A DNA stretch of 64,000 nucleotides, taken from NCBI GenBank assembly GCA_015179125.1, contig WHVA01000050.1, positions 248,001 to 312,000 of the forward strand, given 5' to 3'. The notes under the pieces were generated by a model. The model saw only the letters and a program-made list of their open reading frames with translations. It was not told where the DNA came from and searched no databases. Each line of letters opens with the position of its first letter. Positions within the stretch are counted from its first letter, which is position 1. Shown one piece after another: positions 421 through 40,429 of the stretch. The stretch comes from Gautieria morchelliformis. Its lineage: Eukaryota > Basidiomycota > Agaricomycetes > Gomphales > Gomphaceae. Position numbers and translations under genes: made by a program.

Positions 421-1291
421 GCCTGCAGTTTTAGCAGTGAAGCAATCAATCATCTTTCACCCAAACCACTCATACCTTGAGTAACTGAAGTGTGACTTCA
501 ACACAGCCTTGTACCGAAGTACTGGCTCACTGACTTGGCTACAGTCTAAGATTGCAGCAACTCTGATTGGCTCTGAGAAGTACAAGAGTGCTCTATTTTA
601 ATTGCAGCAGGCTCTGACTAATCGCGCTGCGAACAGCAACATTACTAAGAGTAACTGATTAGTAATCCTGTACCATTAGACGCCACTCTGAGCAGTGATC
701 TAATAGACTTGGTTATTAGTTATTCAATTCACACAATAGATTATTAACTTAACTCTGAGTTAAGTGGGTTAATAGCCTTTTGAGTAATTGATCTTTCTTG
801 ATCAATCAACGCACTGCAGATATTAACCTAACTCAGGGTAAGTGAGTTAATATCCTACATTTGTTGAGTTGGAAAACCAGAAAAGCCACAAGAATAGTGA
901 CATACTTGAACTGAGGAAGAGTTCAAGCGCAGAACTATCTTTTCACGTCTTGGGGATTATTGTTGTCTTTAATTCACTCGACCCGCGGTCCTAAGACTCT
1001 AGGTAGCTTTCCCCCTTAAAGTATCTGGACCCTTGGACGCCTAACAACATTCTTTGACCTCACAAAGTATTGCACAATCTAAGAACTACACGTGTTCAGT
1101 TAAATCTCTATTGCTACACTTCCTGTACCAATACTGATTCTGATCGTTCACCGGAGTATAATTTCTTAATTGGGTTCTCCGTTAAAATAGTTTCAAAGCT
1201 TGCGTGTGCTTGTAAAGTCAAATCTCTGATTGAACTTTAGAATTGTGTTTAACACCACAGTTTTACGTTTAGTTCAACGGGTTCCAAAACA

Positions 1292-2177
1292 CGAATGCTA
1301 TGGCCTTCACCATTGCGCTTCCACCGCCAAAAACTTTCTATTGGCGTATTATGGACACTACGCAGACGCATACCACTTGGCCATTTTTCAAGGGAAAATT
1401 CAGGAGCCACATCCATCCTGAACGGTATCAACATATCAAAATATATAATAAATGATGCAGCCGAGCTACTAACCGTAATGTCTCCTGGATATGAAGCATC
1501 TCTCCCGTCTCCGTTCCCATGTCCGTTACATCAGTAATAGCAATACGATCTAGGTAAACTGTGAGTGCACAAGAATGAAATGAAGCCAAAGCAATCTTAC
1601 AGTCCATTTCTTCAATAACGTCAAGTTTAACATGCGCAATTGCACGAGCAAGCCGAACACTTGGCATGACAACAAGCTTAACGAGGTAACTTGACCACAC
1701 ATCCTTTCCACCATAGATAGGGAGTCCAATTGGTCCCATTCCAAGTGCCTGTCCACCAAGCTTTTCGTGCCCATCCCAATGGAACTTATGGAACGGTCCA
1801 ACCGCCAAAAGCGGCTTTCACTTGATTTTCCGGCTTTCCGCAAACCTGTATTCAAATTCTTCATTAAAATGGTCATGGAGAATCTTCCTACACTCGCGGC
1901 TGGGACAGCTTCTTAATATCATAACATGAGGATCGTAAAAGAGATCATACCGCGATATATGTATGCCTTGTTCCGCTAGCCTTTGTTTTACTTGCCCAAC
2001 ACCCCACAAGCCCATAATATCATTTTCCTTCACATTAATCACTGCTTGTGACATATCGAGTTCATCGAGTTCATTCTTGCGGACAGTCGAGTTGCTAAGC
2101 CGCTTGCGCAATTGATATAGAACACTCCGTCTGCACATTGTCAGAATAACGATTTTGAGTAAAACCAAATGCCACAT
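1292..2177 (-). pseudogene. Integrase-core (DDE) transposase gene, C-terminal part
   Basis: Reading leftward, the frame resembles the basidiomycete integrase-core family. An N-terminal helical region (RRSVLYQLRKRL, then SRECRKIL) is followed by the catalytic core with a DDE-like triad: D in FHWDGHEKLG, D in TDMGTETGEM, and E in VHNTPIESFWRW. The family normally continues past this last motif, but here it stops after NGEGHSIR at the LTR junction at 1291. At least two introns are needed between the open segments, and small in-frame breaks remain. The N-terminal exons lie at 10661-10936, on the other side of the 8.5-kb element at 2190-10658, so the gene is split by two insertions. Family assignment rests on remembered motif patterns and was not tested by a search. 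Confidence 0.6.
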
Positions 2178-2189
2178 ACTTTATCTTAC

Positions 2190-2495
2190 AGCGCTTTTGC
2201 AGTACGTAAGGCGGGCGCTTGTTTTGCTTCCATTATTCGGCGGCCAAAATTAAAACAGCTGTAGAATAGCTAGTTCTCCATGGATTCAATCCAAATTTGA
2301 AATACAAGGTTATATGAGCTTATATGAGGGCACAGTACCCTAACATTGATGTAAATCAACTGATAAAAAATTCGCATTTTTGGCCAGCTGCCCCTGGACT
2401 AGAATGTCTATTGCAAGCTGAATACATGCCAGAACCAATAACTTGTTGACAGATCATGTACTCAGGACATATGTTGAGGGATTAAACTGCATTTA
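2190..2495 (+). repeat. Left terminal inverted repeat of the Pack-type element
   Basis: Matches the reverse complement of 10353-10658 over its full length with about five differences, for example TTTT against TTT near the tip. Identity stops at GCATTTA on the inner side of both copies. Confidence 0.85.
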
Positions 2496-2576
2496 AGCTT
2501 TATATATGAGATGGTATTTTTCCTGGTGTGTTGCTTATTTCCAATTTCCTTGCGATATCATAGCTCATGGAACATC

Positions 2577-2808
2577 TGTAAGGGCGACTCTAACGGGTGC
2601 TCTACTCCCTAGAGCGGCACCTGAGGTAGAGGAGATCCAAAGAGAACAGAGTGAGGATCTCCTTACCTCAGCGATGAACTATATAGCTGCTACACAATGA
2701 CATAAGCAAGCCACACAACTGGTGGCAACACAGGAAGGAATAGGGAAGGATGCAACAAGGGAGATGCAAGGAAGGCAAATAAAAAGAAGAACAGGTGGTC
2801 CCCTGACA
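2577..2808 (+). repeat. 5' LTR of the non-autonomous element
   Basis: 232 bp, TG...CA termini, preceded by ACATC. The only difference seen from the 3' copy is G versus A in AAC(G/A)GGTGCT. Confidence 0.9.
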
Positions 2809-2843
2809 TCACCCCCCTTCTAGAATGCGACGTCCCGACGCAT
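2809..2843 (+). repeat. Leader motif with hairpin, copy 1
   Basis: Directly after the 5' LTR: TCACCCCCCTTCTA followed by TGCGACGTCCCGACGCAT. A near copy lies at 4128-4163. In that copy the second part forms a 7-bp stem (TGCGTCG/CGACGCA) with a 3-base loop; here the stem has one mismatch. The position is where a primer-binding or packaging signal is expected, but no tRNA match was recognised. Confidence 0.5.
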
Positions 2844-4127
2844 AAGGTCTCAGTCAGCACTTGGTCCAACCACTGATCCAAAGTGGGAGGGCGCAGTGGG
2901 GGCCGTGACAACGGTGCGCAGCAAACACAGAGAGGCTAGAGGTGTGTGGAGCGTGCATGAATGGGGAGCAGGGGAGCAGAGTACGTTGAATGTGCCACCC
3001 CCCGTCTGCAGCCACAATGGTGGGGGGGTCGCGACTGCCGCAGGACACACTGGGGGGGATGCAATGGCGGGACACGCACACGGGCACGTGTGGGGCAGTA
3101 CAAGCGTGTCCATATAGCGTGCAAGGCACACCGGGCTTGCGCGGATGGGCATGTGCCTGCACCCAAGGGAACTTCGACCCGCTGGCATGGCGTGGCAACC
3201 CATGCGGGGGTGCGGTTTGCCCATGCGGAGGCACAAGTGCATCAGCCTTGTGGCAAAGCGTCTGCTGCAGTATTCCTAGGGCAGGCATGCGCACGTGGGT
3301 ATGTCGCGGTGGTCACGGGCGTGGGTGACACCGCCACGATGTCCGCGTCTCGTCTCATGGTCGCACGGTGCGGGTTGTGTGGCCACTGGAACTTGAGAGG
3401 AGAGCCATAGAGTGCAGAGTACCTATGGGCATCATGCTCCAGCACCCACGGAGGTGTGCATTGTATGCAAGGTGCACACTTCTGACAGCGGGCGATATCC
3501 TGGATGTCACATATCCCACCCCAGGCCATCTCAGTATGTCCAACGCTCTAGGGAACGCATGTCGCTATCCACTCATCGCCGTCGAAGTCGGTGCGGCCTG
3601 GCAACAGGTCGTGAGGCGACATCAGAAGGTGTGTGGGGGGTCTCGACGAGGCATGGAGGGAGGTGTCCGGCTGCGCGGTTATGCAGCACTTTCGTGGCCG
3701 CTGGGAATGAGGTAACACTGGCGCATGGTGGAAGGACCAAGCATGCCCGGGGTGTGCGCATCCAAGCCTGTGCGTCGCCAACATCCGTATGTGCGGGACA
3801 TCGGTGGGCAAGCCCCCCTTACGACGACATGGGTGTGCGTGGCGTGTTGTAGCACCTGCGGCTGCCTGCATCCTCGCGTGGGGTGCTTGCCGTTCCTCCG
3901 CTGAGCTTCGTGGCATGCGCGCATCATCCTGGCGGTGCGCCTTCAGTTCTGAAGCGACGTGTGCTTCTCGGACCTAGGGGATGTCCGTCACACGTTCATG
4001 GACGCAGGGAACGTCGCTCAGGACACAGCCGGATATGTGTGCGTGCATGCATGCGGGGAGGCAAGTACATGCGGGAGCCTGGAGAGGCGTGCGGGTGTGC
4101 ACGTGCGCCTTACGCAGTGAGTGACTT

Positions 4128-4163
4128 TCACCCCCTCTTCTACGGTGCGTCGTCCCGACGCAT
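4128..4163 (+). repeat. Leader motif with hairpin, copy 2
   Basis: TCACCCCCTCTTCTA plus the perfect hairpin TGCGTCG-TCC-CGACGCA (4146-4162). It repeats the sequence that abuts the 5' LTR, 1.3 kb further in. Confidence 0.55.
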
Positions 4164-5267
4164 GTCATCGTGCGGTGCGGGAGAGGAAGGAAAGGTGCGG
4201 AGTGGTGGGGTGACAGGGTACGTGCCAGGTAGGTAGGCCCGCCTTTCGCTCGTTGGATGAAACACCGCGCTCGCGCTGCACTACTGGGCCGTGTGAGCTG
4301 TGTCAGCACCGGCTGTGCGAATCCGACATGGGCGGGGTGTCGCGCTGCAGCGTGGCGGGCGAAGAGACGGGGGTCGCGCGGCACCATACACACTGGCACG
4401 CGCGGCGCACGTTTGTCGTGACATGGCAGGAGCGCGGTCTCCCTCTACAAGGCCCGGGTGTGCCGCGTGGCGATCGGCAAGCTGCCTGGCCTGCGTGACA
4501 TGCGGGTCTCTCATGGCGACATCATCTGGGTGGCAGCGCGGCCTCGCGCTGTGTGTAGTCGGGTGAAGTTGGCCCACCAGGTGCGGGAGTGCGGCTGCGT
4601 GTTTTGCGAGTGGCGGCCGCCTCTGCGTGAGGGTGGGCTCCTTTGCAACCTCGGCATTTCCACCGCTATGCTGACGGGCATGCGTGTACGTTTGTGCGTG
4701 CATGAGCGGGTGGCGCGCCAGCGCACGGCGGCACGTCCGTCGGTACGGGGCCTCGCGTGCGTCGCGCCGCCGAACGCGCTGGCGTTTGGGGCCATGCGCC
4801 TGGCTCTGCCGACAGCGAGTGTGCATCGTATAACACCGCACACGATGACGAGGGCGTCGCCGTCGTGTTGCTCGCCCACGTACGCGGCGCCTACACGTAC
4901 CCCGACACCGACATTAGGTAACACGACCTCTGGATCCAACCGAGCGTGCCTCCATGGCAGCTGCCTTCGACGCAGCGCAATGCGGGACCGTGGCGCATGC
5001 ATCGAAGCGTCTATGGTGCGCATAGAATCTCTGATTGTGCGCTGGAGCTGGCGGAGGACTTCTGGCTTGAGCAAGAGTGCGGGGCTCTTGGCTCTCACCT
5101 CCCCTCTTAGCCCACGGCGTCCCGACGTGCGCGTTCTAATTGGCTGTGCAGCGTGTGAGAGTGTCGGGCTCGAGTGAGGTACCGAGCGCGTGCGGAAGTG
5201 CAGGTATGGTCTGTGCGGATCGATGTGGGAAGTCCGTGCGGAACGGGAGCGGAAGGTACGCATGTGC

Positions 5268-5313
5268 AGGGACGTCACGGAAGCGACGTACGCAACGCGG
5301 AAACCCATCGCGT
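5268..5313 (+). repeat. 46-bp direct repeat inside the LTR element, copy 1
   Basis: Begins AGGGACGTCACGG and ends CCCATCGCGT. It is identical, as read, to 7745-7790. The second copy lies just upstream of the purine tract and 3' LTR. Confidence 0.8.
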
Positions 5314-7744
5314 AGAGAGTCGCCCTCACTCCGCGCCCGGCGCACGTTCCCGTGCTCCTGCACCGATCATACTCGAGTCCTCCCAGCCACGCATTCCCTG
5401 ACATCCCCGTGGATGTCCCACATTGCGTGCCCCAGATGTCGTCCTGCTCCCGACGGCGTTCAGCGCGCCGCGCACCTGTCACGCAACTCTCCATGCGTAC
5501 CGCTCGTCCCCGCATGCCTCTGAGCTCGCTGCAGCATGCAGCATGGGGTGGTGGAGCGCCGTGCACATGGGCGCGTGTGGCGTTGTCCATGCACCGAAGC
5601 ACTGCCATACCTTGCGTGTGCGTGCGTGGGGCTGAGGTCACGGTGCAGGACGCGACTGCGTGTACGCTTCGGACATGGGGCTGCGGCCTGCGTGGAGGGG
5701 TCCGTTCGGCACGTCCCCACGTGGCCGCAATTGCGTGCGTGAGCGGGCGCGCGGCGGCGCGTCCATCGGTACCGAACCTCGCGCGCGTTCGTGACGTCGC
5801 GACGCGTGCGATGTGGGCGGTAGCGCGGTAGTAGGGGTGCTGTAAGGCCCCTAGATCCCGTGGGGTGCTCGCGGTGCCGTGTGGGTCCGGGGGGACGTCG
5901 GCATCGGACGGCGCGTCGCGCGTCACGGGCTCGCTGATGCCGAGTCGTTGCCTAGCTCGCAGCTGGGCAGGTGCGCGTGCATGCGCGGGTGGAGGCGAGT
6001 GCGCGCAAGCGCAGCGGCGCGGTCGTTGGCACAGGGCCGCGTAGCTTCGCGTAGCTCCGCGTCGTGCGTGCGCGTGTGCGCGCGCGGATTGGCGGTCGCA
6101 AGGTCCCACGGTCCGTAGGGGTCGGTGTCGCACTACCGTGGACCGCCGTGGCTCGTCGTGGTCGTGCATCATGGATGGGTGGTGGAGAAAGGTCAGATGG
6201 GAGTGCGAGGGAGACACATGGAGACGCGGCGGATCGTGACGGGTTGCGCGGTACCTGTGCTTTCCCGGGTGCGTTCTCAGCTCATACATCCTGACCCTCC
6301 TTCCACTCATCTGGCCCTAACCCCACTCCTGCCGCAGTGCCGTGCACCAGGCCGAGGTCCTTGCTGGCCGGACCCTGGTGCGCTGAACTGGGCTCGCCTC
6401 ATGAGTCCCTGTACAGGGAGCGCCGAGTAAGAGACGGAAGGGACAGTGGCGGGGCTGGCAATTAGTGCGCAACGTGCGCAGCCTGCGCCGCGTCGAAGGG
6501 ACTTGATGCTTCTTGAAAATCCCTATGAGATGGGTGCGACGAAGGGCGCATCACGCGCCATGCCACGCACATATCGACCTCAATTCCGGCCGGTCTGCGG
6601 AAGTCCCGAGGCACTTGGCACGTATACGCACGGTATCGGGGCTGTGCAGCATGCGTGACGAGCAGGGAGGGAGGTGCACGTGGGGGAAGGGGTGCGGTGG
6701 CCGTGCGGCTACAGCGAGGCGTGGCGGAAGCCTGCGCGGCGGCGAAGGGGTTTCGTGGTTCTAGGGCACCGTGGGTCGCCGGTACCGCATGCCCTGGGGC
6801 TGTACGACGTCGAGGTGCGGTTGGGCATCGTGGCGAAGCGGGAGGGGCGGCGCGACGCACGGCGGGGGGTGTCTGCAGTATCCTGCGGGTCCTCATGGAC
6901 ATCGGCGTAGTCGACAGAAGGTGGCAGTCAACCTGTGGCGGGAGGAGCCGTGGCATGCGCTGGAGAAGCGACTGCACGAGATGGGTGTGCAGGCAGTCTT
7001 CGTGGGTGGGCGCATGTGCACCTGAACGTGCAGGGCTGTTGCTACGTGTCTGGAATGATTTGGAGGCTGGGTGCGGCTCATGCGACGTCCAGAAGGCGTC
7101 AGAGATGTTGATGTTCAACGGCGGTTCATCGTAGTGCCACGTCACATATCACTTCCGTTGAGGCGTGCTACTCTCCGTCACTCCTAGTGTAAATCTGACG
7201 CCACCTCAGCCTTTGACACGGACAGTAGTCGATGGTCGTGGATGCGTCTTATAGCTCCTGCGTGCCCTCCCTTATCTGACCCTATATGTTATTTCCTTCA
7301 TTGAACAGAATATAATTTAAAGAACTGAGATGGGAAACGCAAGGAGGATTCGTGTCGTGGATGGGGAGTCGGATAGGAGGGACACGAAGGTGGTCGGACA
7401 TGAGGGTATGAAGTTGAGGCACGAAGGGTAGGACGGATCGAAGGGTGGCATCGTGAGGGTGTGCGGTGCGTAGTAGATGACAGGTACTCGGATTGTAGAT
7501 AAGTCGGGATAAGGAATTAGGGGGTTGGTGGTTTATGGTGTCGCCTTGGCCTTCAGAGGGCGGTGCACCCTACTGGCATTGCGCAGCGGTTTATAGTGCC
7601 GTCCAGAACAGTACACTCTCTCGCGGGAACACGAGGAAAAGGCCTCGAAGAAAGACACCGGTGGCAGCTGCTAACGCAACGTGGGATCCTTCCACGTTCG
7701 GTCTGCGCAATCTCCAGCCAGGCTGCCAGTCTTCGAGGAGGAAG

Positions 7745-7790
7745 AGGGACGTCACGGAAGCGACGTACGCAACGCGGAAACCCATCGCGT
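7745..7790 (+). repeat. 46-bp direct repeat inside the LTR element, copy 2
   Basis: Identical to 5268-5313. It sits 30 bases before the purine tract that primes plus-strand synthesis, so it belongs to the 3' cis-acting region; copy 1 may mark a former 3' end. Confidence 0.8.
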
Positions 7791-7841
7791 TCGGTACGCC
7801 CAGTCCGAACCGTCGGTCTTCAGGGGGGGACTCTGTTCTAC

Positions 7842-8073
7842 TGTAAGGGCGACTCTAACAGGTGCTCTACTCCCTAGAGCGGCACCTGAGGTAGAGGAGA
7901 TCCAAAGAGAACAGAGTGAGGATCTCCTTACCTCAGCGATGAACTATATAGCTGCTACACAATGACATAAGCAAGCCACACAACTGGTGGCAACACAGGA
8001 AGGAATAGGGAAGGATGCAACAAGGGAGATGCAAGGAAGGCAAATAAAAAGAAGAACAGGTGGTCCCCTGACA
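7842..8073 (+). repeat. 3' LTR of the non-autonomous element
   Basis: 232 bp, near-identical to 2577-2808, followed by the target duplication ACATC at 8074-8078. Confidence 0.9.
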
Positions 8074-8450
8074 ACATCAGTCATTCGCTGTGTTTGGGGC
8101 AGCAGGAACAGGTGCGTGATGTTCAGTCCACCGCTATAACCTTGATACTACATCTTCAATTAGCACGCGCTTTCCCGACTTGGGTGAGTGGCACATCACT
8201 TCAAAGCTTCTGGCACTGAATCTCTCGGACAAGTGGGGAAACCTGTCACTCGATGACGGTAAGAGCAATGATAAATTCTACAGTCTACCACCGCGTTGAA
8301 CTTCCAATCAAGGATTATCTGCAGACCGCTGCAAGGCTCCAGCAAACTAACTCAAGACTTCACTTTTTAAGCTCTGAAGGAGCTGGCTGTGCTTAGTGCA
8401 CCCATTCGTTGTATTAGGATGTAGAGGAGCCCATGTAAAGCTCATGAAGG

Positions 8451-9486
8451 CTATACTGAGATCATTTTAAAGAAGTTAAATCCATCAGATGCAGTGGTCA
8501 TCACCACTCCCGGTATTTGTGGATGCCAATGCACCTCCTTGATATCTTTCTGTCCTTGATGGACGAATAGAAGCTGGGGAGGAACCTCCTCCCCCTGAGA
8601 GTCCTCATTTACACCCATCTCGTCTTCGTCATGTTCTACGGATAAGTCCCACAACGTGACTTGGTCATCCGCACCAGAGGCGGTAAAAATACTATCTTCT
8701 GTAGGATGCCACTCAACAGATGTAATGGGGGAATCGTGCCACGCAAATGACGCCATGGGGCTAGGCTTGTGGTATTGTGTGGATCTGCGGCATACGAGTC
8801 AGCTCATATGTCGCGATAAAAAATTCGGAACGTACTCCTTGAAATTCCGTAGATCCCAGACCTTAATCCCGCCCTCGTCACCGCCGCTGAGGAGCAAATA
8901 TGCGGTGTTCTTATTCCAACTTATTACGTTTACGTCGCTGTCGTGGGCCACCTCCAACCCGATCACGCTCCTCCGACCCTTGACGTGGACATCCCATATA
9001 CGAATGCTGCAATCGGCTGAACATGAGCCAAAGACGGTAGGTTCGGCCGGAGACCATTGGAGATCCTCCACGGACGAGGTATGCGAAGTGAAGGGCTGCG
9101 GCAAAGTGTTGAAATGTGAGGATGATGACGTAGTAAGGTAAATTTTGGAGTGGAAATCCCCCGTTAATAGACGAAGCGACGACGAATTCAAGCCCGACGA
9201 GGCCCAATCCATCGCGAATCCCTCGGCTCTGCCGTGCGCGTTCAGAGTGAAGACAGGGGCGCTGGTACGTGCATTATCTGGTACAAACCCTGGAGTCGAA
9301 AGGGCCTCGACTAGAGGACGGATATCGTAGATATGTAATTTGCCCGTGTCAGACCAGGTCGCGACGTGGTAGGGCTGCGAAACGGGGGGGAGCGGCTGGC
9401 AGAGGGCAAGTGATTGCGCACGGACGCGGTTGACTCCACCTAAATGGGGGATCGTGCGGTATTCGAGAACCGCGTCTTCGTCGATC
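8451..9486 (-). pseudogene. RRB1: Captured 3' fragment of GRWD1/RRB1 ribosome-assembly WD40 gene
   Basis: Two exons, 8836-~9486 and 8451-8784, are separated by a 51-bp intron (8785-8835; GTACGT donor, CTGAC branch, GCAG acceptor). The protein starts abruptly at DEDAVLEYRTIPHLGGVNR and runs through WD40 motifs (HGRAEGFAMDWAS, HTSSVEDLQWSP, AHDSDVNVISWN, DSPITSVEWHPTEDSIF) to the family C-terminus (HWHPQIPG, natural stop). GRWD1/Rrb1 is a nucleolar chaperone that escorts ribosomal protein uL3. The N-terminal acidic half is missing, and upstream lies an unrelated GC-rich fragment in the opposite direction. The frame itself is intact, so this is a truncated copy inside the Pack-type element, not the functional gene. 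Confidence 0.85.
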
Positions 9487-9493
9487 AGGTACT

Positions 9494-10352
9494 TTGACCC
9501 GGCGAGTCTGGAGCAGCTCGGCCTCACCGGCATGCTGGGCATCGCGTGGAACGGCGGCACGCCCACCGCCGCCGCCGGGGGCGGCTCCGCAGCCGCGTAC
9601 GTGCAGCACCCCGGCGCGGCCAGCGGCGGCATGTTCGACCACCAGCACCACTGGAGCATGGGCGCGGGCGCGCACAAGTTCGAGCTCCTCGAGCCCGACG
9701 GCGTGTACGCCCCGTTCCCGCCGCCCATGCAGAGCGCCGTCCCAGACGCGCGCGGCTACGGCGGCGGCGGCGCGTACCCCTTGCTCAGCCCGCCGCACCA
9801 CTCGTTCGCGGGCCCGCCGTCGACGCCGAGCTCGTCGAGCGCGGGCCGATTCGGTGACCGCGACAGTCCGTCGGGTGACGGCGGCAGTGGTGGCGCGGGG
9901 AGCGTCGGCGGGTACTCCCCGAACATGGATGCGCACGCACACGTGCGGCAGCAGGTCCCGCCGCTGCACTCGCACCATGGGTACCCCACGCACGCCGCGG
10001 GTGGGGGCGGGGGCGGGTTCCCAGAGTACGACATGGGTGAGTTTGGCGTGCGCGGGCAGCCGCTGCAGCCGCCGCGCATCGCGCCGTTCGAGCACATGGC
10101 GGCGCGGTACCAGCGTGTGCCCGCGTTAAAGAGTGTGCCGGGCGCGAGGGAGGAGTGCGCGCAGGGCGTGGGCGGGGAGGGCGGTGACGCGGCGAGACGG
10201 TACCCGACGCTGCCGAGCTTCCATAGCGTCGTCGCCGCGACGGCGCTGGACAAGTCGCCCGTGTCGCCGCCGCCGGACAAGGACACGGACGCGGAGGACA
10301 AGGACACGCTCTCCACGCTCCGCACGTCCGGTGACCCGGAGCTCAAGCTCCA
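9494..10352 (+). pseudogene. Captured GC-rich coding fragment of an unidentified host gene
   Basis: A single plus-strand frame stays open for the whole segment, with strong GC bias and a glycine/proline/serine-rich translation (LTGMLGIAWNGG near its start, then PPPMQS, YQRVPALKSVPGA, and a charged DKDTDAEDKDT tail). It has neither a start nor a natural stop. It begins within ~10 bases of the GRWD1 fragment and ends exactly at the right inverted repeat. Such disordered Gly/Pro-rich stretches occur in fungal regulators, but no domain is visible, so no function is assigned. Overlapping frames on the minus strand are open too, as expected in GC-rich DNA, so the coding strand is a judgement. Confidence 0.45.
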
Positions 10353-10658
10353 TAAATGCAGTTTAATCCCTCAACATATGTCCTGAGTACATGATCTGTC
10401 AACAAGTTATTGGTTCTGGCATGTATTCAGCTTACAATAGACATTCTAGTCCAGGGGCAGCTGGCCAAAAATGCGAATTTTTTACCAGTTGATTTACATC
10501 AATGTTAGGGTACTGTGCCCTCATATAAGCTCATATAACCTTGTATTTCAAATTTGGATTGAATCCATGGAGAACTAGCTATTCTACAGCTGTTTTAATT
10601 TTGGCCGCTGAATAATGGAAGCAAAACAAGCGCCCGCCTTACGTACTGCAAAGCGCTG
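10353..10658 (-). repeat. Right terminal inverted repeat of the Pack-type element
   Basis: Reverse complement of 2190-2495. It ends AAGCGCTG followed by TA. Confidence 0.85.
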
Positions 10659-10660
10659 TA

Positions 10661-10936
10661 AGACCTTTGCCTCAAGTCGTGCGAGCTGGTCAGGTGCAGG
10701 CAAACTTTCACGGGTGTATTGGTCAAATTCGGCTCGAAGCTCGTTGTCTGGAGGGTCTGTTTGTGTTGAATATTAGATTAGGCTAAAGCTACCATTCTTC
10801 ATTACTCACAGAGCTTGTCCCCGTACTGGTTTTTACCTGCGATGTTGGGCATTGGCTGGCGCAATGGATCACGGATGCACGAGCGCTTTCTGAGCTTGAA
10901 GGCGGTAAGAGGTTGTTGATGCTTCTTTGGTGCCAT
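10661..10936 (-). pseudogene. Integrase-core transposase gene, N-terminal exons
   Basis: Exon 1 begins at ATG 10936 (MAPKKHQQPL...) and ends at 10810. A 53-bp intron (10757-10809, GTGAGT..ACAG) leads to exon 2 (10661-10756), encoding LRAEFDQYTRESLPAPDQLARLEAK, the leader of basidiomycete integrase-core ORFs. The exon runs straight into the right inverted repeat, and the reading resumes at 2187 with an intron acceptor and RSVLYQLRKRL. Rejoining the flanks at the TA leaves a one-base frame problem, so the gene may already have been decaying or the exon border is misjudged. An in-frame upstream ATG at 11038 is possible but less family-like. Confidence 0.55.
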
Positions 10937-11806
10937 GGCGTCTAGTTTTAGCTTATAGAAATCGAAAATTGAAGCGTGGACTTCCGGCCAGCCGTAGTTA
11001 GCGTGTGATGACACGACGCGCTTGTCACCTTGAGTCACAGTTTGCGCTTACAAAGGCTGTTGTGGGTGGGTGCAGGCGGCGTGACGGCTGGCTGCCGAAT
11101 GCCGAACAAGCAGCTTTGGGCGCTTGCGACCAGCAGCAGTCGCTGCTAGAAGCTACCCCCGGGGCAGCTTTTCCAACAAGCAGCTTCTAGCAGCCAGAAG
11201 CTGCTTCTCACCTCGGGACTGAATGCCCCTATTGTAGGGCTGGTCTACTTTGGTGAATCGCGTGGCTCATGCATGAAATACTAGGCTGCCCGGCTAGTTC
11301 TGAACCTCAGGCGCAGTGCACGGTTCTCCAACGATTTTTCTAGTGACGACATCGAGTTAGATGAAACAATCAGCCCCAGGGGGGCAGGAGTGGGCAACTT
11401 ACGTTTGTCTTCGGAGTGACTGTCGTTGGTTTAAGAAGCTTTGATAAAGAAAGCGTATAATTAAAGCGTATAATTCGAGGTTCAGGCCGTGGCTGGGAGC
11501 AGCAGAGAAGTAATCCATTTTACAATAGAATATTTCTTTCCTTGTATTCTAGCCCCAGACTATGCAAATTCCTTAGCTTAGTCTACATCTCTAACTATGG
11601 GATGAGAATATCGTAGTAATATAATATATCTACGGTACTTAGGACCGTAGGACGTGGTGAATGACTGGCTTCCAGCCGACTCTGGCTTGGGGAACAAACG
11701 GTTTCAATGTACTTACATACAGGAACACAGGCTTGAAAGTATCTTTTGCACTATCTTACCGAGCCAGTTGATATCGAGTCGATTGAATCTCCGACAAAAA
11801 CTGAAG
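10937..11806. other. Intergenic region
   Basis: Between the integrase remnant and the TDG gene. It contains a run rich in GCAGCTT/AAGCTGC inverted motifs (about 11110-11210) that can fold back, and AT-rich promoter-like sequence before 11807. No coding segment was recognised. Confidence 0.4.
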
Positions 11807-13169
11807 ATGGAACCTGCTGAAGCTTTGAAACACTCAATATCTTGCTTTGCGTTTCCTCCCGCGCAGCCATCCACCCCATTGCGGCGTTCCTCTCGCAAAT
11901 GCGTCACATTGAAAGACGAGATCGAATTTCAATCCCTTGAGGCAGCGATCCAATTGCCAAAAAGAGAAGGTCCGAAAGGAGACTCTGACTCTGACTTAGG
12001 CAGCCCGAAGAAAAGGCGACGTATCTTGAAACGAGGATATGCACATCCTGAAGCATATGCGCATCTCAACACGCTCAAGGACCACCTTGCGCCATCTCTT
12101 GACGGTGATGCAGTATATATGAGTCACGCTCTTTTGAATCCTCACATTTGCGAGTAGTCATGTTTTGTGGCATTAAGTGGGAAACATTCTTATCATTGGG
12201 TTATCATGTCTACTGACCCGGATTTAGTCCTGGCTGCATGTCAGCCACCAAAGGCCACCACTTTGCCAACCCTACGAACCATTTCTGGAAAGGTCTTCAT
12301 CTCTCTGGTCCGTTTTCTGATTTGATCTACTCCCTTTATTTTGGCAGGTTATTCAGATGCCCATTAGGCTTCACTCCCAGATTGTTGTCACCCTCTGAAG
12401 ACGCAACACTCCCGACGTGTTATTCACTCGGTTTGGTGAGTTTGGGTGATATGAATCTGCTCTTACAAGATGTCAATCCAGTTTTTAAGACAAACCTTGT
12501 CGAGAGACCCTCGGCTGAGGTTCGGGTTTCAATCTAGGGTCGGTGATATTGTATCAATCCTTGCATTGCCAGCAAGCAGAACTCTCAAAGATAGAGATGA
12601 AACGCTCTGTACCATCCCTCAAAGTAAAAATAGCCAATCACCGTCCTCGAATTGTTTGTTTTGTGGGGAAGGGTATATGGGTCATCGTGGAAGCCGTCTT
12701 TAAGAACCATGTCGGCAGAAACAGACATACTACAGGGTCGAAATCCTTTGAATGGGGTCTCCAACCTTACAAACTGGTTTATTCGCACCCAGAATGTCAG
12801 TTACTTCCTTATATATCATGCTTTATCCTTACACCAAGAAAGCTATCATTACAGATAAACAGTACGACATCGAGTGTCCGATGCCCGGTTCTCCTGTGAC
12901 AGAAACGTTGTTCTGGGTCATGCCAAGTACTGTGAGTGTCTCGCCATTATTTAGCACAATTTGATAATTGCCAGTTTAGTCTGGTCGTGTTGTCAGCCAT
13001 CAAGTGTGTTGCCGTCGTTGAGTCGCATGCCAGAGCCGTTAGTCACTAACAATGTATTACACAGCTCAACGACAAGGTTAAGCTGTTTTCCCGCTTGCGG
13101 ATGAATTTGGAGAAAATCAAATCCAACAACCTGGACACTTCTGGAATGGCGGTTATTCCCCTAACGTGA
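11807..13169 (+). CDS. TDG: G/T mismatch-specific thymine (uracil) DNA glycosylase, MUG/TDG family
   Basis: Nine exons: 11807-12104, 12158-12176, 12228-12307, 12368-12435, 12490-12519, 12573-12795, 12855-12931, 12980-13003 and 13065-13169 (307 codons plus stop). The core contains the family motif GINPG (the Asn that activates water in TDG/MUG), then GHHFANPTNHFWKGLHLSG, PSEDATLP, the TNLVERPSAEQ segment and RIVCFVGKGIW, ending with ETLFWVMPSTSGR. Residues 1-100 are basic and disordered (KKRRRILKRG), a likely nuclear-localisation and DNA-binding tail. The enzyme removes T or U opposite G, acting in base-excision repair in the nucleus. Start: first ATG in frame with the core preceded by a plausible leader; an upstream in-frame ATG at 11654 would add 51 residues of non-conserved sequence. 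Relation to S. pombe Thp1 is by family knowledge. Confidence 0.9.
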
Positions 13170-30172: not shown

Positions 30173-32891
30173 AGTAGAGAATTGAGACTACTGGCAGCGT
30201 TAAACTTCCGACGCCACAAAACAGGTACTACTCAGGGCGTAACTGGTGCTTTCGGTCGACCAGGAAAGCCCCAGCGTAACGAAGGACTTATCGCCCTGTT
30301 ATGGGGAGTACTAGCGACGACACTTGTTTCGAAGACCGATGGTGATGAGCGGAGTACGGTCGGAGTGTAAACAGACACCCCCATCATGAGGATACCTGAG
30401 CATAAGGAGTGCATGTGTTGCTGGCAAGATCTCTAATATATTTAACATGGATTCAGCTTCGATTCTTTAGAGAAAATGGAAACTCTTATTCGAAGGTCTC
30501 TATTGTTTTATACCTATTAAATCATGCGTCCTCGAAGGGTCTGCGCTTCTGCTATAGATCCAGCATCGTTCTAATTGCATTCAAGTATGAGTTATTTCAT
30601 GCATATATGTACTGGACGACCATGTGAGCGTCATGTGTGGCCCACGGGAACAACAGGAGTAGGTTTCCTTGTTCTAACCCCCACATATTGGCAATATGAT
30701 GCCAATATTAGTACTAGCTCTGATTATTCAAGCGACACTGTACAGTATATAATAGTAATTTTGACGTGCTAGCTAGTAGCTAAGCTGTCTGGTATGCTGG
30801 CAATCGCGGGCCGCGGAGAATCATCTACACCCATAAATATTGTTGTCCAGAGGTTGCCTTTATGATCAATCATGCACTACCGCGCGCTATAGTAGAGTAA
30901 GTAGACCAGGCTCGCACCAACGTACTCGGAGCCTCGTAGGTACGTAGAGGTCTAACAAATTTCGGTGTTGGTAACTCTATATTACGTAAGGCTTTTTACA
31001 TAAAGCTGCGGTGCTTCAGGCTCGATCTCCCTTTCTCCCCCCAGGGGCTCCACACTGCACACTGCTCTCTTCCTCGTCCGACATTCCTGTGCGGTTGGGC
31101 ACAGAGTATGACGGCGGCTTGAGCGGCAGACAGAGCAGCAGACAGAAAATCAGGGGACCAGTTACGGTAACAAATATTGAGGATAGAAAACATATGTCGT
31201 CACAAACACACCCGGCCACCGCATTCCATCCCGCAACCCCCCAGGACGTGAGTCGGGTCCTTTCCGTATCTTCCGTTTCACTCTCCAACCGAGGCTGACA
31301 GTCCGCGGCTATTTTTCTCACCCCTCCTCAGCCCTATTGTCCGCAGTCTCAACCCTCACTACAGGCCACCACCTCACGGGACCGCGACGTAAATCTTACG
31401 CCCCTTTACAGTACTTCTTACGCCCCTTTTCAGTACTTCTTCTCTGGATGTCTTTTACGTGGCGTCGTTTCCTATCCACGCATGAGTACGGGCGTAGTAT
31501 GGGAAAGCTCGGTGGCAGTTGCGTGGGCTACTCTTACAGTCGATATTTCCGTGACCTCTGGATTCGCGCCTTGTGGATGCATATAGGGAACCCCGTCTGT
31601 CCACAGCCCGGAAATATACTTTGTCGCCACCGGAATCTACATCAGTTTGCAGCTTGACACTACGTGCACAATTTGCTCCGGATACGACCCTGCACCCCCG
31701 AGTCACACCAAATCCTAGCTCGAGATCCAGCCCTGTCAGTACTCGCATACTCTCACTTAAAGTTCGTCTCCGTCCGTTGTTATTCGTTTGGTGATTTGGA
31801 AGAAAGTCCTTTCCGACCTTTCCCAGGACTGTGGCACCTTCCCAGCTCAAGATTCCCACCGCGGACGCCCCAACTCCTACCTCTACCTCGATCGCACCTG
31901 TCCCCCTCCCCCACATGCTTCCTGGCAATATATAAAACAAGGTAAACCACTTACCAGCCAAGCCACCTATCATATCTGGCGCTCAGGCCTAATACTATGT
32001 GAAGTCAACCCCAGCCCTACACTGGATGGGAAGTGTTTACGACCTATTTGCGGAAGTGTGGCATGAGACGCTCACTGAGTGGTCTGTTGTTGGACAAGTC
32101 ATACTTATACTTTGCCTGCACAAGCGAGCCAACGGATAGCAATGGATATTTATACTACCACTAAAGGTCTTGCGGTGTGAAGGAAATTTGTCACGTGCTG
32201 CCGACTGGTTGAACACGCGTTCCTTGAACGGTTATAGAAGACGGACCTGAGTCTTATGTAGCTGCAGATGAGCATCATTCTCTCACTTAGTAGACACGCG
32301 TCGAACGCGTCCACGCGTTCGGCGCTACTGGCAGGAGTCGCTGACCAAGTCTATCAATTGGTTGGGCTCCACTAGTGCAGCATACTGAGGCGATGGGATG
32401 CAGCATGTTATAAGGCTGGGCAAGCAGCAAAGGGCAGCAACTACCAGAAGCCAACGCCAATCTCGAACCAGGATCCAGTCACTGGGGCGCATAATCACTG
32501 TCATGATGATCAGCTCTGGCATTGTCGTGTGTGGCCAAGTGGACATACGTACCGGGAACTTCCTTTTCTTCGCTAAACAAGCATTTAGGGTCTAGACATA
32601 GGCACGCGCGGAAGTTCGCGGCACATAACAGCTTCGCCAGCGTCTCTGCCAAATTCAAACGATTTCGGTAACAAACGATAAGATACTGCGCAGCTCAGGT
32701 ACGGATACTTGTGGTTAGCATACACTCGGGATGGCAGTGTCATGCAATGTATCTACGGCGCGGCGGAACGGCATGAATCTCACACCTCGCGTTCCTGATA
32801 ACTGATGACAATAGACTCTGTGACAGAATGAGCACACTAGAAGAAGTTCATTTCATGGCTGTTGCTGCTCACCGCGCTCACCATCCTTCCC
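30173..32891. other. Intergenic region between GH95 and MFS genes
   Basis: 2.7 kb. It contains C/T-rich tracts (31020-31080, 31800-31940) and a 172-codon minus-strand frame (31455-31973) with no domain or splice support. A near-palindromic ACACGCGTCGAACGCGTC cluster lies at about 32290-32325. No gene was assembled. Confidence 0.35.
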
Positions 32892-34985
32892 ATGTCTTCA
32901 TCACTCGATGAGAAGGAGGAATGCCAACAGGACCTCTCATCTCCCACCAAATTCACCATCGATGATCACGACATCGATCCTGTAGCGGAGAAAAGACTAC
33001 TTCGTAAACTGGACTGGGCACTCTTGCCACTCTTCGCACTGCTTTACTTGACAAACTTCATAGATCGGACCGCGATAGGTACGTTGTCTCTCTTACTGTA
33101 AAGGAGCCCGATAAACAAGTACTACTGCTAGGCAATGCCAAAGTCGCAGGTATGACATCTTGTTCATCATGTGTTCATCAACTATCGATCACGACTGCGT
33201 TCTGACTGGGTCGTGTAATTCTATAGGTCTTGAGAAAGACCTTGGTCTCAAAGGTCTTGACTACAATGTTGCCCTCACCTTTTTCTATGTGGCCGTAGGT
33301 CGAAAAGTCCTGTATTCTCGACGGCTACTAATGCATAAAACAGTATATTATTGTCGAGATTCCATCCAACCTCGTCTTGAAGCAGTTTGGTTCTATATGG
33401 ATCGCTGTCCTAGTTATCGCATTTGGCGTCGTATCTATGTCCTCAGCATTTGTTCACAATTTCGCTGGATTGATAGCGACCCGCGTATTCCTCGGATTCG
33501 CGGAAGGGGGTTTGTTACCTGGTGTTGTGTATATGCTGAGTCGGGTGCGTATCCTAGTACTGCATGCCAACTTTTACATTTCATATTAATCAACTATAAC
33601 ATGACAGTACTACCGCAGGAAGGAGTTCGTATTCCGCGTAGGTATTTTTTTCGCCCTTTCGCCACCCCTGGCTGGAGCATGTGCGTGAATTTTCTCCCCT
33701 TGTTGCTTCAAGCCATGTTTAAGGTATACGTGAGTGAAGTTGGAGGTTTGCTGGCGTCGGGGTTGCTATCTATCAATTCAATTGGCCCGGTAACGTCCTG
33801 GCGCAAAATCTTCTTCGTGGAAGGACTCATCACCGCAGGCATTGGAGTCGTCTGCCTCTTCATCATTCCTGCTGATCCTGAACGTTCCCGACTGTTGACG
33901 AAGGAGGAGCGTGTCCTTGCATTGAAGCGGATCGCATTGGATAGAGTGGTGAAGAACTCAAAACGCGAGAAGACACGACTCAACTTGGTACTTCGCGCTT
34001 TCAATTTCAACGTGAGTGTTGCGTGTATAACTGTGTTCCACGCTCATTCCCGCGATGGCTATCAATTTAGGCTGGGCTGAATGCGTTGTGTTACATACTC
34101 ATCAACATTTCGTTCCAAGGGTTAAGCTTGTTTATGCCCACTGTCATAGCGACGCGTAAGTTTATACGTTCTGACCTGTAATAATATCTAATCTTAAAGG
34201 TAGTCGGTAACTTTAGTAAGTGTTTAGTGGTGACCTCAGGGTGGTTTGTTCACATCCTACTAGGCACGATTGAGACCCAGCTTCGAACGGTACCTCCCTA
34301 CCTCGTGAGCGGTGTCTGGGCCATAGCCAACTCCTACATGTCCTTTCGAACAGAGAGGCGTGGGTTGTGGATCTTCATTTCCGTTTTGCTTAGCGTCATT
34401 GGATATGCCATATTTGTTGCCACTGAAAACTCGCAAGCTCGGTGAGTAGTTTCAATTACACACGACAAACGGGTTACGGTCACTAATGAAGCGTCAGTTA
34501 TGCTGCATGCTTCTTGGGCATAGCCGGAGGCACTCCTTCGGGCCCAATGATGCTGACTTGGGCAACTGATAATGCGGCCCCCGAAACTGTCAGAGCTGTC
34601 ACCACAGCGCTTGTTCCAGGTCTTGGAACTATTGGTGCTATTATTGCGTGAGCTATCTGTCGTTCATCTAGACTTGTGTCATCTTTTTAATCTGTACATT
34701 GACCTCCAGAGTCTGGACATACTTGCCCAATGATGCACCAAATTAGTATGTATATCATCTTTACTTTGGGTTTCTACTGAGTGCCACACTAGCCACCGTG
34801 GAAATTCGCTGAATCTTGCTGCATGCTCTTTGGTATGCGTCCTTGCGGTAATCGGAGTGCGTTACATCCATTGGGAAAACGCCAAGCGCGATCGTGGTGA
34901 CCGTGACCGTAGGCTGGTAGGCAAATCACAAGAGGAAATTGAGGAACTTGGTTCACGGCATCCTGCATACCGTTACCAACAATAG
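32892..34985 (+). CDS. Major facilitator superfamily transporter, Dal5/anion:cation symporter-like
   Basis: Twelve exons: 32892-33078, 33132-33149, 33227-33294, 33344-33544, 33608-33680, 33740-34011, 34071-34155, 34204-34215, 34264-34441, 34498-34647, 34710-34745 and 34793-34985, giving 490 residues. Family features: acidic N-tail, then KLDWALLPLFALLYLTNFIDRTAIGNAK (TM1 with the D-R-x-x-I-G-N-A signature of fungal allantoate/nicotinate-type permeases), RVFLGFAEGGLLPG (TM4 motif), YYRRKE (loop after TM4), WRKIFFVEG, a basic central loop and C-terminal ENAKRDRGDRD. About 12 membrane segments are visible. It should import a small organic anion at the plasma membrane; the substrate cannot be read from sequence. 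Exons of 12 and 18 nt are required for frame and for the conserved GNAKVAG and ATLGNFSTIETQ segments. The frame is intact. Confidence 0.9.
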
Positions 34986-36660: not shown

Positions 36661-38540
36661 AAGAGCCGTTCCACTGCCTTCCCCGCACCCTGAAAACATT
36701 CGGGTTGTTCACCATGACCCGAGCGACCCATATCCGAACCCACCGCCAACTCTGACGAATTCGAAGTTGCGTAAGAAGTGGCATGCGATGGCTCTTGAGA
36801 CTCGAGAAGCATTGTGGCAGGAAGTTGAGGGTTCGACAACTGAACCAAAGAGTGATGACGGGATAGTTGACCCCCATGAGCTTCTTTGCGGTATTAACAA
36901 CAAAAAACATTCGCTTGATGCAGGGGACGATGCACGCGCTGCCAAGAAGCCGGCACGCTCTAACATCACGAGTTCTCATTATTCTTGTATTCCAATAAGA
37001 GATTTGACTCACCTTGGTCTTGCCTTACTGTCACTAGCTGCTTCTGCGCCACCTGAGAACGACCGTGGTGCTGGAAATTATAGTGCACAAATCACCAGGT
37101 CAGTATTGTTTGAGGTCGGCGAGCACATACTTATTGGTTGCCTATTTGAGTAGAGACGGACCCTCACACCCATTGAACCAGATAACGACTAAGTAAGTTA
37201 TTAGTCGTGTATTCAAACGTGATAAGGTGGCTTCACCTCGTCGGGTAGTTTGGCTGCACGCAGGGATATAGATCTGAGTGCGGCAGTGCAGGAGCACAAC
37301 CGTAAGTGTGATTGTTATGGTGACAGGCATACTGAGATGTACTTATGACAGAAGGATTGTCTGATGGTCATGAGAGGAATCACCGAGTCGAACGCTGGTC
37401 ACATGCCATACAATCGCAACTTCCTCAAAGGGGTCGATCCTTGAAAATATCTAGCAGATGCAGGGGTGGCTCTATCACCACAGTGTCCAGCTCGGACAAG
37501 TGGAAGTTACTTGCCAAGACCAAAGTGGCCCATCTCACTTCTGACGAAAAAATGCTGAAAGATGAGCTTCAGGTCAGCTCCATGAACCGTAATCATGACG
37601 AATACAATCTCACTGTCTCACAGAACATTGTACGAAGAAATTTCCAAGAACTCATGGGTATCTGAATCAGCAGGAAGAAAAATACAGACCAAGAGCGGCT
37701 GCCACACCCACGTAGACGTGGTGCTTCTCCGAGACGTAATCAGAGTGGTGAAGAGCTGTTAACACCTAATTTTACTGAGGCCGTACAACATGCGCATAAC
37801 CGCCTGATCCTGGACAAAACTGCAGATTTAGCAGTCACTGAAATCAACGTGAGTCATGTGTACACATGGTCTTGGAGATCCAACTTACGTGCAGTTGTTA
37901 GGCCAGCCCTTCCAATCTGATGCTTGAGCTATATCCATCAATTCCATTCAAACACCCTCTGCTGTCTGAGCTTGCTTCAGGGGATATGTGACCAAATACC
38001 AGGCTCAGAACGATCCAGAGAAGAAAAAAATGGAAACGGCGAACTGGAAAGTTGCTCGACACAGGCGCAGGCTTGAGGATGTACGTATACCACACATCAT
38101 ATTAATGCTGTGAGGTATTGATGAGTGGGCCGTGGTAGAAAATGGCATGGAGACTTACTGCGGTGCCGAAATTCATGGTCAACTACCATCTCAATCCATC
38201 GGCTCTGCTCCATCCAGACTGGATGTCGAATGAGGATAGCTAGCTGGAAGGTTATGATAAGTTTGATGATGAGCAGGAGAGGCAAGAGGAGATGGCAATG
38301 CGGAGAAGGAATTGCCTGCTACGACTTGGAATCTCTGGTGATGATCATGATGACATTGCTATATTGGAGGTGGTGAAACCTGAATGGTGAAGTGATTTGG
38401 TGAGTTCTGAAATTGTCACGAGTAAGAAGACATTTACTAGTATCGTTTACCAGGCATCAGGGATATTGCACGAATTGAGTCATATCCACTACATGGATAT
38501 GACCGCTGCTGAGCGTAAGACCATGAAGTATAAGAGAATA
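36661..38540 (+). pseudogene. Decayed gene of unknown basidiomycete family
   Basis: Coding-like segments run along the plus strand: 36661-37110 (…HHDPSDPYPNPPP, KLRKKWHAMALETREALW, HLGLALLSLAAS), 37260-37670 (AVQEHNRKCD, GHMPYNRNFLKGVDP, TSGSYLPRPK, EYNLTVSQNIVRR), 37680-37860 (RKKNTDQERLPHPRRRG, EAVQHAHNRLI) and a tail near 38400-38540. They are interrupted by a TGA in GVDP*KYL, a one-base shift around 37530 and a TGA after LMGI. The pattern (HMPYNRNFLKG, ALSP, ARTSGSY) looks like a conserved protein, but I cannot name the family. The mariner element sits immediately upstream and may cover its promoter or 5' exon. Confidence 0.45.
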
Positions 38541-38683
38541 AAAAAGGGGGAACCCTTTTGCACTCTGACCACCACCACCCACAGACCGCAACTTAGAGTT
38601 CCTACTTTTCTACCATAATTACCACCCTAGCTACGCTCAAAAAACACTCTTTACATATGTAACACCTACCAACCCTCACGCTG

Positions 38684-40429
38684 ATGTCGAACGACACGTC
38701 GACGAGCGGTGCGAGGGGCAGAAATACGCCCACGCGACGGGCACCGGCGCCTACGACCATGGCACAGGCGAAGCTAGACACCCAAGGCTGGATCCAGCCC
38801 AGGACAACAGCTAGCACAGTGAAGGAGAAACAGCCAGAGCAGACGAAGCGGGTCGAGGCCCTGGGAGAGAAGAGGGTGCAGGCTGGACAGCCGGCCACAA
38901 GAAGCGCCACACAGGACCCGGAGTGCCTCACCAGGGAAGAGATAAGAGATTTACCAGGACAGGAGATTAGGGACTCTGACGAAGGTAAGATTTACCTTGA
39001 ACGTACCTTGCTGACAATACTGGGCGCGTCATGGATGACCGACACGCTGTCCACCGCCATACTGCAAGTGACACAATACAAAGGAGTACCGCGGCAGGCT
39101 GTCAACATGCTGCGGTCCATCGCGTTCGTGATGGAAAGCATCAAGGACGACACGAGATAGGAGAGAGTTATGTGCCGGGTGAAAGAGAGTCTTGCGGTGG
39201 AAGGAAACACTCTCTCAATCAAAGTGGCGGAGGCTACAGAAATGCTCGACAAGGCCACCGCAGCTGTGGATGCCACGGCCAAGCTATCCCGCCAGATCGC
39301 CGAGGACGCGGCAGCGGCGGTGAAGACAATGCAGATGGCGTCGAACACGGTCGCCACCTCGGCAACTCAGATCAACGAAACCAGTACCTCCTACCGAGAC
39401 GCGATGGTGAAGGCGGCGGACATCACGTAACGGGCACTGGCCAGCGCACCCACCCTCGACGCCAGGGTCCGGGCGAGGGAAGGAATAAAGCAGAGACAAG
39501 TCTTGGTGGACGCCCTGGGGGAGCGCATACTGGCAGATATGGACAACGCCAGCCTGATGACCCGGGCGAACGAAATTATCAACGCTATGGACACGGAAGG
39601 GCCCGCACTGTTATCAGCATGAGGAGACTCACGAACGGAGGGGTGCTCTTCGAGCTCAACGACGAGGCAGTGGCGAGGTGGCTCAACGGAGCTGAGTGCA
39701 GAGTGTGGTTCACAGAGGCACTTGCGCCAGACGTGAGGATGAAGGCGCGACTATTCTCACTGGTGTTACAATTCGTCCCGCTCCACTTCATACCGGAGCG
39801 GGAGGGGGAGCTAAGGGAGGTGGAGAAAATAAACCGCCTGTCACACGGCGCGATCGATAAGGCAAGATGGATCAAGCCCAGACAGTGCAGGGCGGCGAAC
39901 CAGACCTGCGGCCATGCCCTCATCACTTTCACCACGCCCGAGGTGGCCAACAAGATACTAACGGATGGGCTGATCGTGTGTCAGAAGCGCGTCTATGCTG
40001 AGAAGTGCAAGGAGCCCACCCGCTGTCTTAAATGCCAGGGGTGGAGCCATATGTCCTATGCCTGTCCACAAGGACATGACACGTGCGGCACCTGCGGGGG
40101 ATGCCACAGGACGCCCGCCTGCGACCAAATGAGGCTATACTGTGTCTCGTGCAAATCTGCGGAGCATGCAAGCTGGGCCAGAACATGTCCGGTATTTCAG
40201 AGTAAGTGCGTTGAGCTGGACACCAGACTTCTTGAGAACCAGATGCCCTATTTCCCCACCGAGGAGGCATGGACCCACGTCTCTCAACCGCCCAAGATGC
40301 CCCCCCCCGATCCCAGTGCCCACCTTTCCGATATTCGCACCACAGCAGGATACGGGATGGGAGATAGTGACATGCCGGAGGGGCAAGTACAGGCAGCTGC
40401 AGCCAGCGCCCCAGCAAGCTCCTGTCAGT
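38684..40429 (+). pseudogene. LINE ORF1 (gag-like, CCHC zinc knuckles)
   Basis: Starts MSNDTSTSGARGRN. A coiled-coil-prone alanine/threonine-rich segment (39170-39600: KVAEATEMLDKATAAVD..., AEDAAAAVKTMQ) precedes an esterase-free nucleic-acid-binding region and tandem Cys/His knuckles (CLKCQGWSHMSYACP, CGTCGGCHRTPAC, CVSCKSAEHASWARTCP). It is broken by TAG at 39158, TAA at 39428 and a frame change near 39610; the remaining frame 39619-40429 is open. It would coat the LINE RNA. Confidence 0.75.

Follow-up and report, generated by a model that had tools for sequence, protein, structure and literature searches.

Pack-Mariner elements have been described from rice and maize (PMC8903248; here and below, literature statements refer to the passages cited), and in fungi the transduplication of histone H3 by hAT elements is reported from Pyrenophora and Mycosphaerellaceae (PMC3538342, PMC6710886). 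How unlinked genes come to be captured is still called an open question in a recent review (PMC13317346). Here we analyse an element in the basidiomycete Gautieria morchelliformis (Gomphales, Phallomycetidae, Basidiomycota; 122-Mb assembly, 1113 contigs) that carries pieces of two host genes between terminal inverted repeats (TIRs). It lies in a 64,000-nucleotide stretch of one contig, called the window throughout; the window element is the copy on contig C560, and an 11.8-kb contig, C90, carries a near-identical duplicate of it (4 mismatches and 28 gap positions over 9704 columns). In our judgement it is very probably a Pack-type, non-autonomous Tc1/mariner element of a large family, filled by copying from a single host locus and later shortened.

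The insertion itself can be read from loci that lack it. All ten empty paralogous loci examined read CTTAAG where the window has CTTA[CAG...CTG]TAAG, so that TA was duplicated on insertion (2 bp, within TTAA). Together with the inverted arms, these sites confirm the initial annotation of this stretch, which had proposed a Pack-type element with inverted ends and TA on both sides. The ends, put at some 306 bp with about five differences, turned out to be 320 and 306 bp long, and aligning the arms over 307 columns leaves 3 mismatches and 1 gap. Without a later long terminal repeat (LTR) insertion the element measures 2968 bp, in agreement with the original estimate of ~2.97 kb. It was also correctly described as lacking a transposase, every base being accounted for by end repeats, host fragments, the LTR insertion with its target-site duplication (TSD), and 4 junction bases (Table 1). 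The gene that the element was said to interrupt does read across the gap, and empty sites were found for it, but this flanking sequence is a repeat rather than a unique gene: 12 loci have a long match to it, the window and C90 included, and a Pfam search on the interrupted repeat gave no match. Four nucleotides, AAAC, just outside the right end (window 10661-10670) are present in all 10 empty sites and missing from the window.

Table 1. Parts of the element in the window (positions are those of the whole stretch).
Feature	Position	Strand	Basis or remark
Target-site duplication TA, left, inside TTAA target	2187..2188	.	10/10 empty paralogous loci TTAA
Left terminal inverted repeat, 320 bp	2189..2508	+	outer part of the family repeat (~940 bp in C382)
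Captured host piece 1, left of LTR insertion (WD40/GRWD1-type gene, 3' side)	2510..2576	-	C486 from 31121, 97% over 70 bases
Later LTR-element insertion within captured piece 1	2577..8073	.	5497 bp
Captured piece 1 continued: 3' part of WD40 gene (GRWD1/RRB1 type)	8079..9485	-	C486:31186-32592, 96%
Captured piece 2: inner coding part of pacC/RIM101, downstream of zinc fingers	9488..10351	+	C486:37449-38291, 88% gapped, 6.2% mismatches
Right terminal inverted repeat, 306 bp, inner 13 bp missing	10353..10658	-	
Target-site duplication TA, right	10659..10660	.	

Both captured pieces trace back to a single locus, on contig C486, where they lie 4.9 kb apart in two divergent neighbouring genes and from which they have kept the donor orientation; two unrelated donors are thereby ruled out. 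Genome matches to the WD40 piece are confined to C486, C560, C90, and the contig C208, and those to the pacC piece fall on the same four contigs, with one further short match (76%) elsewhere on C486. The product of the first donor gene starts with a CAF1C_H4-bd domain and contains WD40 repeats, an architecture shared by GRWD1/RRB1 and RBBP4; the GRWD1 label is that of the initial annotation and stays putative. The intron-containing 3' fragment recognised there did match the C486 gene through the presumed intron (1403 columns, one 2-nt gap), and since piece 1 retains this intron its source was DNA and not spliced RNA. By contrast, the GC-rich fragment (74% GC) that had been called unrelated belongs to the same locus: it derives from the interior of pacC/RIM101, a gene for which the scoring of candidates gave 272 homologues, several of them so named, the best named organism among the matches listed being Clathrus columnatus (45%). 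With the parental genes on C486, the interior of the element is not the original locus. The window copy has what marks a Pack-TYPE element, namely paired TIRs with a TSD, host coding fragments whose parent lies elsewhere, and no transposase of its own.

A 311-bp query from the end repeat gave at least 34 genome matches (such counts are lower bounds), so the possibility that this pair of repeats is the only one can be set aside; 22 of these matches, found on 17 contigs and counting both ends of the window element, span 285 bases or more. The start TTACAG is found in 25 of 26 family ends, a count that excludes C1068 and C133, two diverged relatives whose four ends include two that also begin this way. 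Both ends are present within the examined stretches at seven loci (C560, C90, C208, C382, C649, C143, and C498), among which C90 duplicates C560, C649 is palindromic, and the end repeats of C143 and C498 are interrupted. The C382 element is 10,988 bp long, with end repeats of ~940 bp that are 97.4% identical; at its insertion site four of five empty copies examined read TTAA and the fifth GTAA. The C208 element reaches 14.4 kb and contains the transposase body.

The body of C382 encodes a DDE_3 transposase (Pfam, E 1.6e-9), for which 124 homologues were obtained at E ≤ 0.001; among the matches listed, several are named Tc1-mariner class or Tc1-like DDE, and the named organisms are mostly basidiomycetes. 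From transposase coding pieces joined by eye, we read the spacing between the second and third catalytic residues (D-E) in the six of nine aligned sequences where a pattern search found both residues: it is 34 in five of them and 35 in one, with a value of 34 for C208. A search of PDB with one transposase exon gave no match. The transposase type in the relatives, with its DD34E-like spacing, and the TA duplication place the family with Tc1/mariner. Tc1/mariner elements are mostly 1-3 kb long, although size is not strictly defining, and C382 and C208 are far from compact. hAT, MULE, and piggyBac elements produce duplications of 8 bp, about 9 bp, and 4 bp (TTAA) respectively, and Helitrons are without a TIR and TSD structure of the kind seen here. 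Membership of hAT, MULE, or piggyBac is ruled out by the 2-bp TA duplication. The family body holds a second gene of ~600 amino acids as joined (stretch L011, 5070-7045); two pieces of it gave no Pfam match, and all of its homologues among the candidates listed, at least 8, are named Gautieria morchelliformis.

The C208 element carries the same capture in both arms, mirrored over 3172 nt with 99.9% identity. In donor-stretch coordinates (the numbering within the C486 stretch used for comparison), its left arm runs through 5123-6593, 11448-12692, and 6522-6624 before entering the body; the right arm follows the same order, but its third piece extends to 6964. The window copy and C208 have in common the junctions between end repeat and donor and between piece 1 and piece 2, so that a single capture underlies both. 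The occurrence of the same junctions at two insertion sites (C560/C90 and C208) points to mobilisation after capture, transposition being read from the sites.

The longer arm visits the donor a third time, and 72 bp of its piece 3 are already present in piece 1, an overlap not obtainable by trimming one block, which argues for copying with template switches. This bears on another proposal, in which two neighbouring elements acting as one after aberrant excision would have enclosed a contiguous block of C486, as in a Pack-CACTA model put forward for plants (PMC13317346), the middle 4.9 kb being deleted later. Pieces 1 and 2 do retain donor order and orientation, but in C208 piece 3 stands after piece 2 although it overlaps piece 1, and we regard the contiguous block as unlikely.

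The copies part at donor position 12292: here the window copy passes into the end repeat of the opposite side, while C208 remains collinear with the donor to 12692. Because C208 continues past this breakpoint, it is the window copy that was shortened, most plausibly by internal deletion. Within C208, the longer right arm is probably the older and the left arm copied from it. The opposite order, with a short element of the window type making the capture first and C208 being a later full-length element that gained its pieces by conversion, could draw on the fact that Pack elements are usually short non-autonomous copies (PMC8903248) and on the probable arm-to-arm copying in C208 (99.9% identical arms). 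Yet C208 shows no break at donor 12292 and runs on for 400 bp collinear with the donor; to gain this stretch later it would have had to capture donor DNA again at that very base, and we consider this order very unlikely.

Capture by copying, followed by shortening, can be put as a series of steps. A full-length element would have undergone break repair just inside one end repeat, with repair synthesis on C486 proceeding along 31122-32592, switching to 37447-38691, returning to 32521-32963, and rejoining the body. Repair across the inverted ends would later have copied the captured arm to the other end, so that both ends bore the 3.2-kb arm in mirror image. A copy descended from this element would have lost the body through an internal deletion that brought the pacC piece up against the end repeat of the other side, and the short element now in the window would have moved into a repeat by means of a transposase supplied from elsewhere. 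We give an even chance to the more general account, that Pack copies are born inside transposase-bearing full-length elements through three donor visits by templated break repair, mirroring of the arm so that gene pieces join the terminal repeats, and internal deletion that produces the short copies.

Several observations weigh against parts of this reconstruction. Relatives with the same TIR and a transposase gene, which the initial annotation had suggested looking for, do exist (longer members are ~11 kb), but the gene is broken in the copies read: stops interrupt it in C382, C545, C793, and C1015, the frame changes in C704, and in C208 the third catalytic residue is K, the statement covering these six copies only. 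No transposition has been observed, and the capture is found at two insertion sites only (C208, and C560 with its duplicate C90). The presumed site of C545/C649 reads TTTGA instead of TTAA in all three related repeats examined, a comparison of the left flank only. Judged by eye, the capture junctions have little or no microhomology, which leaves the repair pathway tentative, and the data are compatible with either order of mirroring and deletion.

We compared the captured pieces with each other and with the donor. For the WD40 piece, 35 of 1405 columns distinguish the window copy from C208, and against C486 the differences number 49 of 1403 for the window copy and 48 of 1403 for C208; the corresponding figures for the pacC piece are 39 of 840, 51 of 826, and 51 of 816. 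Copy-specific substitutions are nonsynonymous in 21 of 35 cases in pacC (p 0.19) and in 17 of 27 in WD40, where two exon stretches were pooled (p 0.40). They appear consistent with neutrality, the expectation being based on one assumed transition weight and, for WD40, on the larger exon. Among changes that split C486 from both copies, 7 of 20 are nonsynonymous in WD40 (p 0.0008) and 20 of 31 in pacC (p 0.43); donor constraint is therefore visible only for the WD40 gene. Retention of the pieces for a function, either as a chimeric protein or through double-stranded RNA that the mirrored arms would direct against the donor genes, is hard to reconcile with these neutral-like substitutions and with a frameshifting 20-nt gap in the pacC piece of C208. 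In its favour, in-frame stops are absent from the gap-free codons compared, an open reading frame (ORF) of the window, 9373-10386, runs through the pacC piece, and the C208 arms, if transcribed, would form a 3.2-kb hairpin. We rate such a function as very unlikely, with slightly poorer prospects than a capture by the short element first, and the pieces may now be drifting as passengers. Finally, an inversion between solo repeats around the original locus is rejected and an assembly artefact is scarcely credible: the near-identical C90 and the palindromic C649 indicate duplicated and perhaps folded-back sequence in the assembly, but the end repeat is multicopy, ten empty loci and a 2-bp duplication attest the insertion in the window, the donor genes sit on C486, and C208, with differing outer flanks and inner junctions unequal between its arms, does not resemble a fold-back.

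The LTR insertion is flanked by a 5-bp TSD, ACATC, at 2572-2576 and 8074-8078 (judged by eye), and its LTRs of ~232 bp differ by 1 mismatch in 232 aligned positions. Its GC content is 62%, and among its ORFs of at least 130 amino acids no retroelement protein was recognised, no domain search having been made on them. On the outer left side, the host repeat ends at window 1293, where the otherwise nearly identical C90 runs on into it; window 1200-1293 recurs at many loci, and the stop is perhaps due to a second, LTR-like insertion. The C649 stretch (L015) is a near-perfect palindrome at 2025-8500, up to the stretch end and around a family copy (2552 nt per arm, 99.96%), and could be either a fold-back assembly or a genuine inverted duplication. 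As for other host captures, we looked at ORFs of at least 140 amino acids in the non-family stretches of 13 copies: those recognised by eye were retroelement- or Helitron-like and many were not recognised, no domain search having been made, so that there may be further captures.

Literature searches, with incomplete coverage of subscription journals, returned no fungal Tc1/mariner gene-capture element among the matches listed; a paper on Styx (PMC10853768) had no bearing on the question. This suggests that, while gene capture by TIR elements is already known from plants, animals, and fungal hATs, a Tc1/mariner case in a fungus is apparently new within the literature searched. The initial annotation was right about a fungal TIR family with a preference for TA, whereas its view that the capture of host pieces by such elements is rarely described has to be tempered by the fungal hATs (PMC3538342, PMC6710886). 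Like those H3-capturing elements, the Gautieria element is a fungal DNA transposon multiplying a host gene or fragment; they differ in having an 8-bp TSD, a capture inferred to proceed from a transcript or retrocopy (PMC6710886), and a single gene, where the Gautieria element kept a presumed intron and holds two pieces of one locus. Gene-capturing Helitrons of Pleurotus are also basidiomycete elements that move gene pieces (PMC4289320).

Outside fungi, Turmoil-1 of Caenorhabditis elegans is likewise a full-length element whose long inverted terminal repeats hold pieces of two host genes, but it is a nematode element of the Harbinger superfamily with pieces from rsp-2 and cpg-3, and the passages cited give no account of copying order, unlike what can be read in Gautieria (PMC2572040). 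For animal Pack-TIRs, gap-filling and FoSTeST models propose, as we do, that template switching brings host DNA between TIRs; these elements are from animals, and 'Tc1' and 'mariner' have no occurrence in the main text of that paper (PMC8277862). With plant Pack-TYPE elements the window copy shares non-autonomous TIRs, a superfamily-typical TSD, coding fragments, and the lack of a transposase, and it differs in being fungal, in its end repeats of 320 to 940 bp, in having a transposase-bearing relative with the same capture, and in a donor and copying order that can be read (PMC8903248). The presence in one genome of the donor, a full-length mirrored copy, and a short derivative, with shared and unshared junctions, makes the order of events arguable from sequence. 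If the stepwise birth of Pack copies is true, the locus would offer a readable record for the open question of how unlinked gene pieces are captured. In either case it adds Tc1/mariner and a basidiomycete to the fungal gene-capturing TIR elements, which in the literature cited are otherwise ascomycete hATs.

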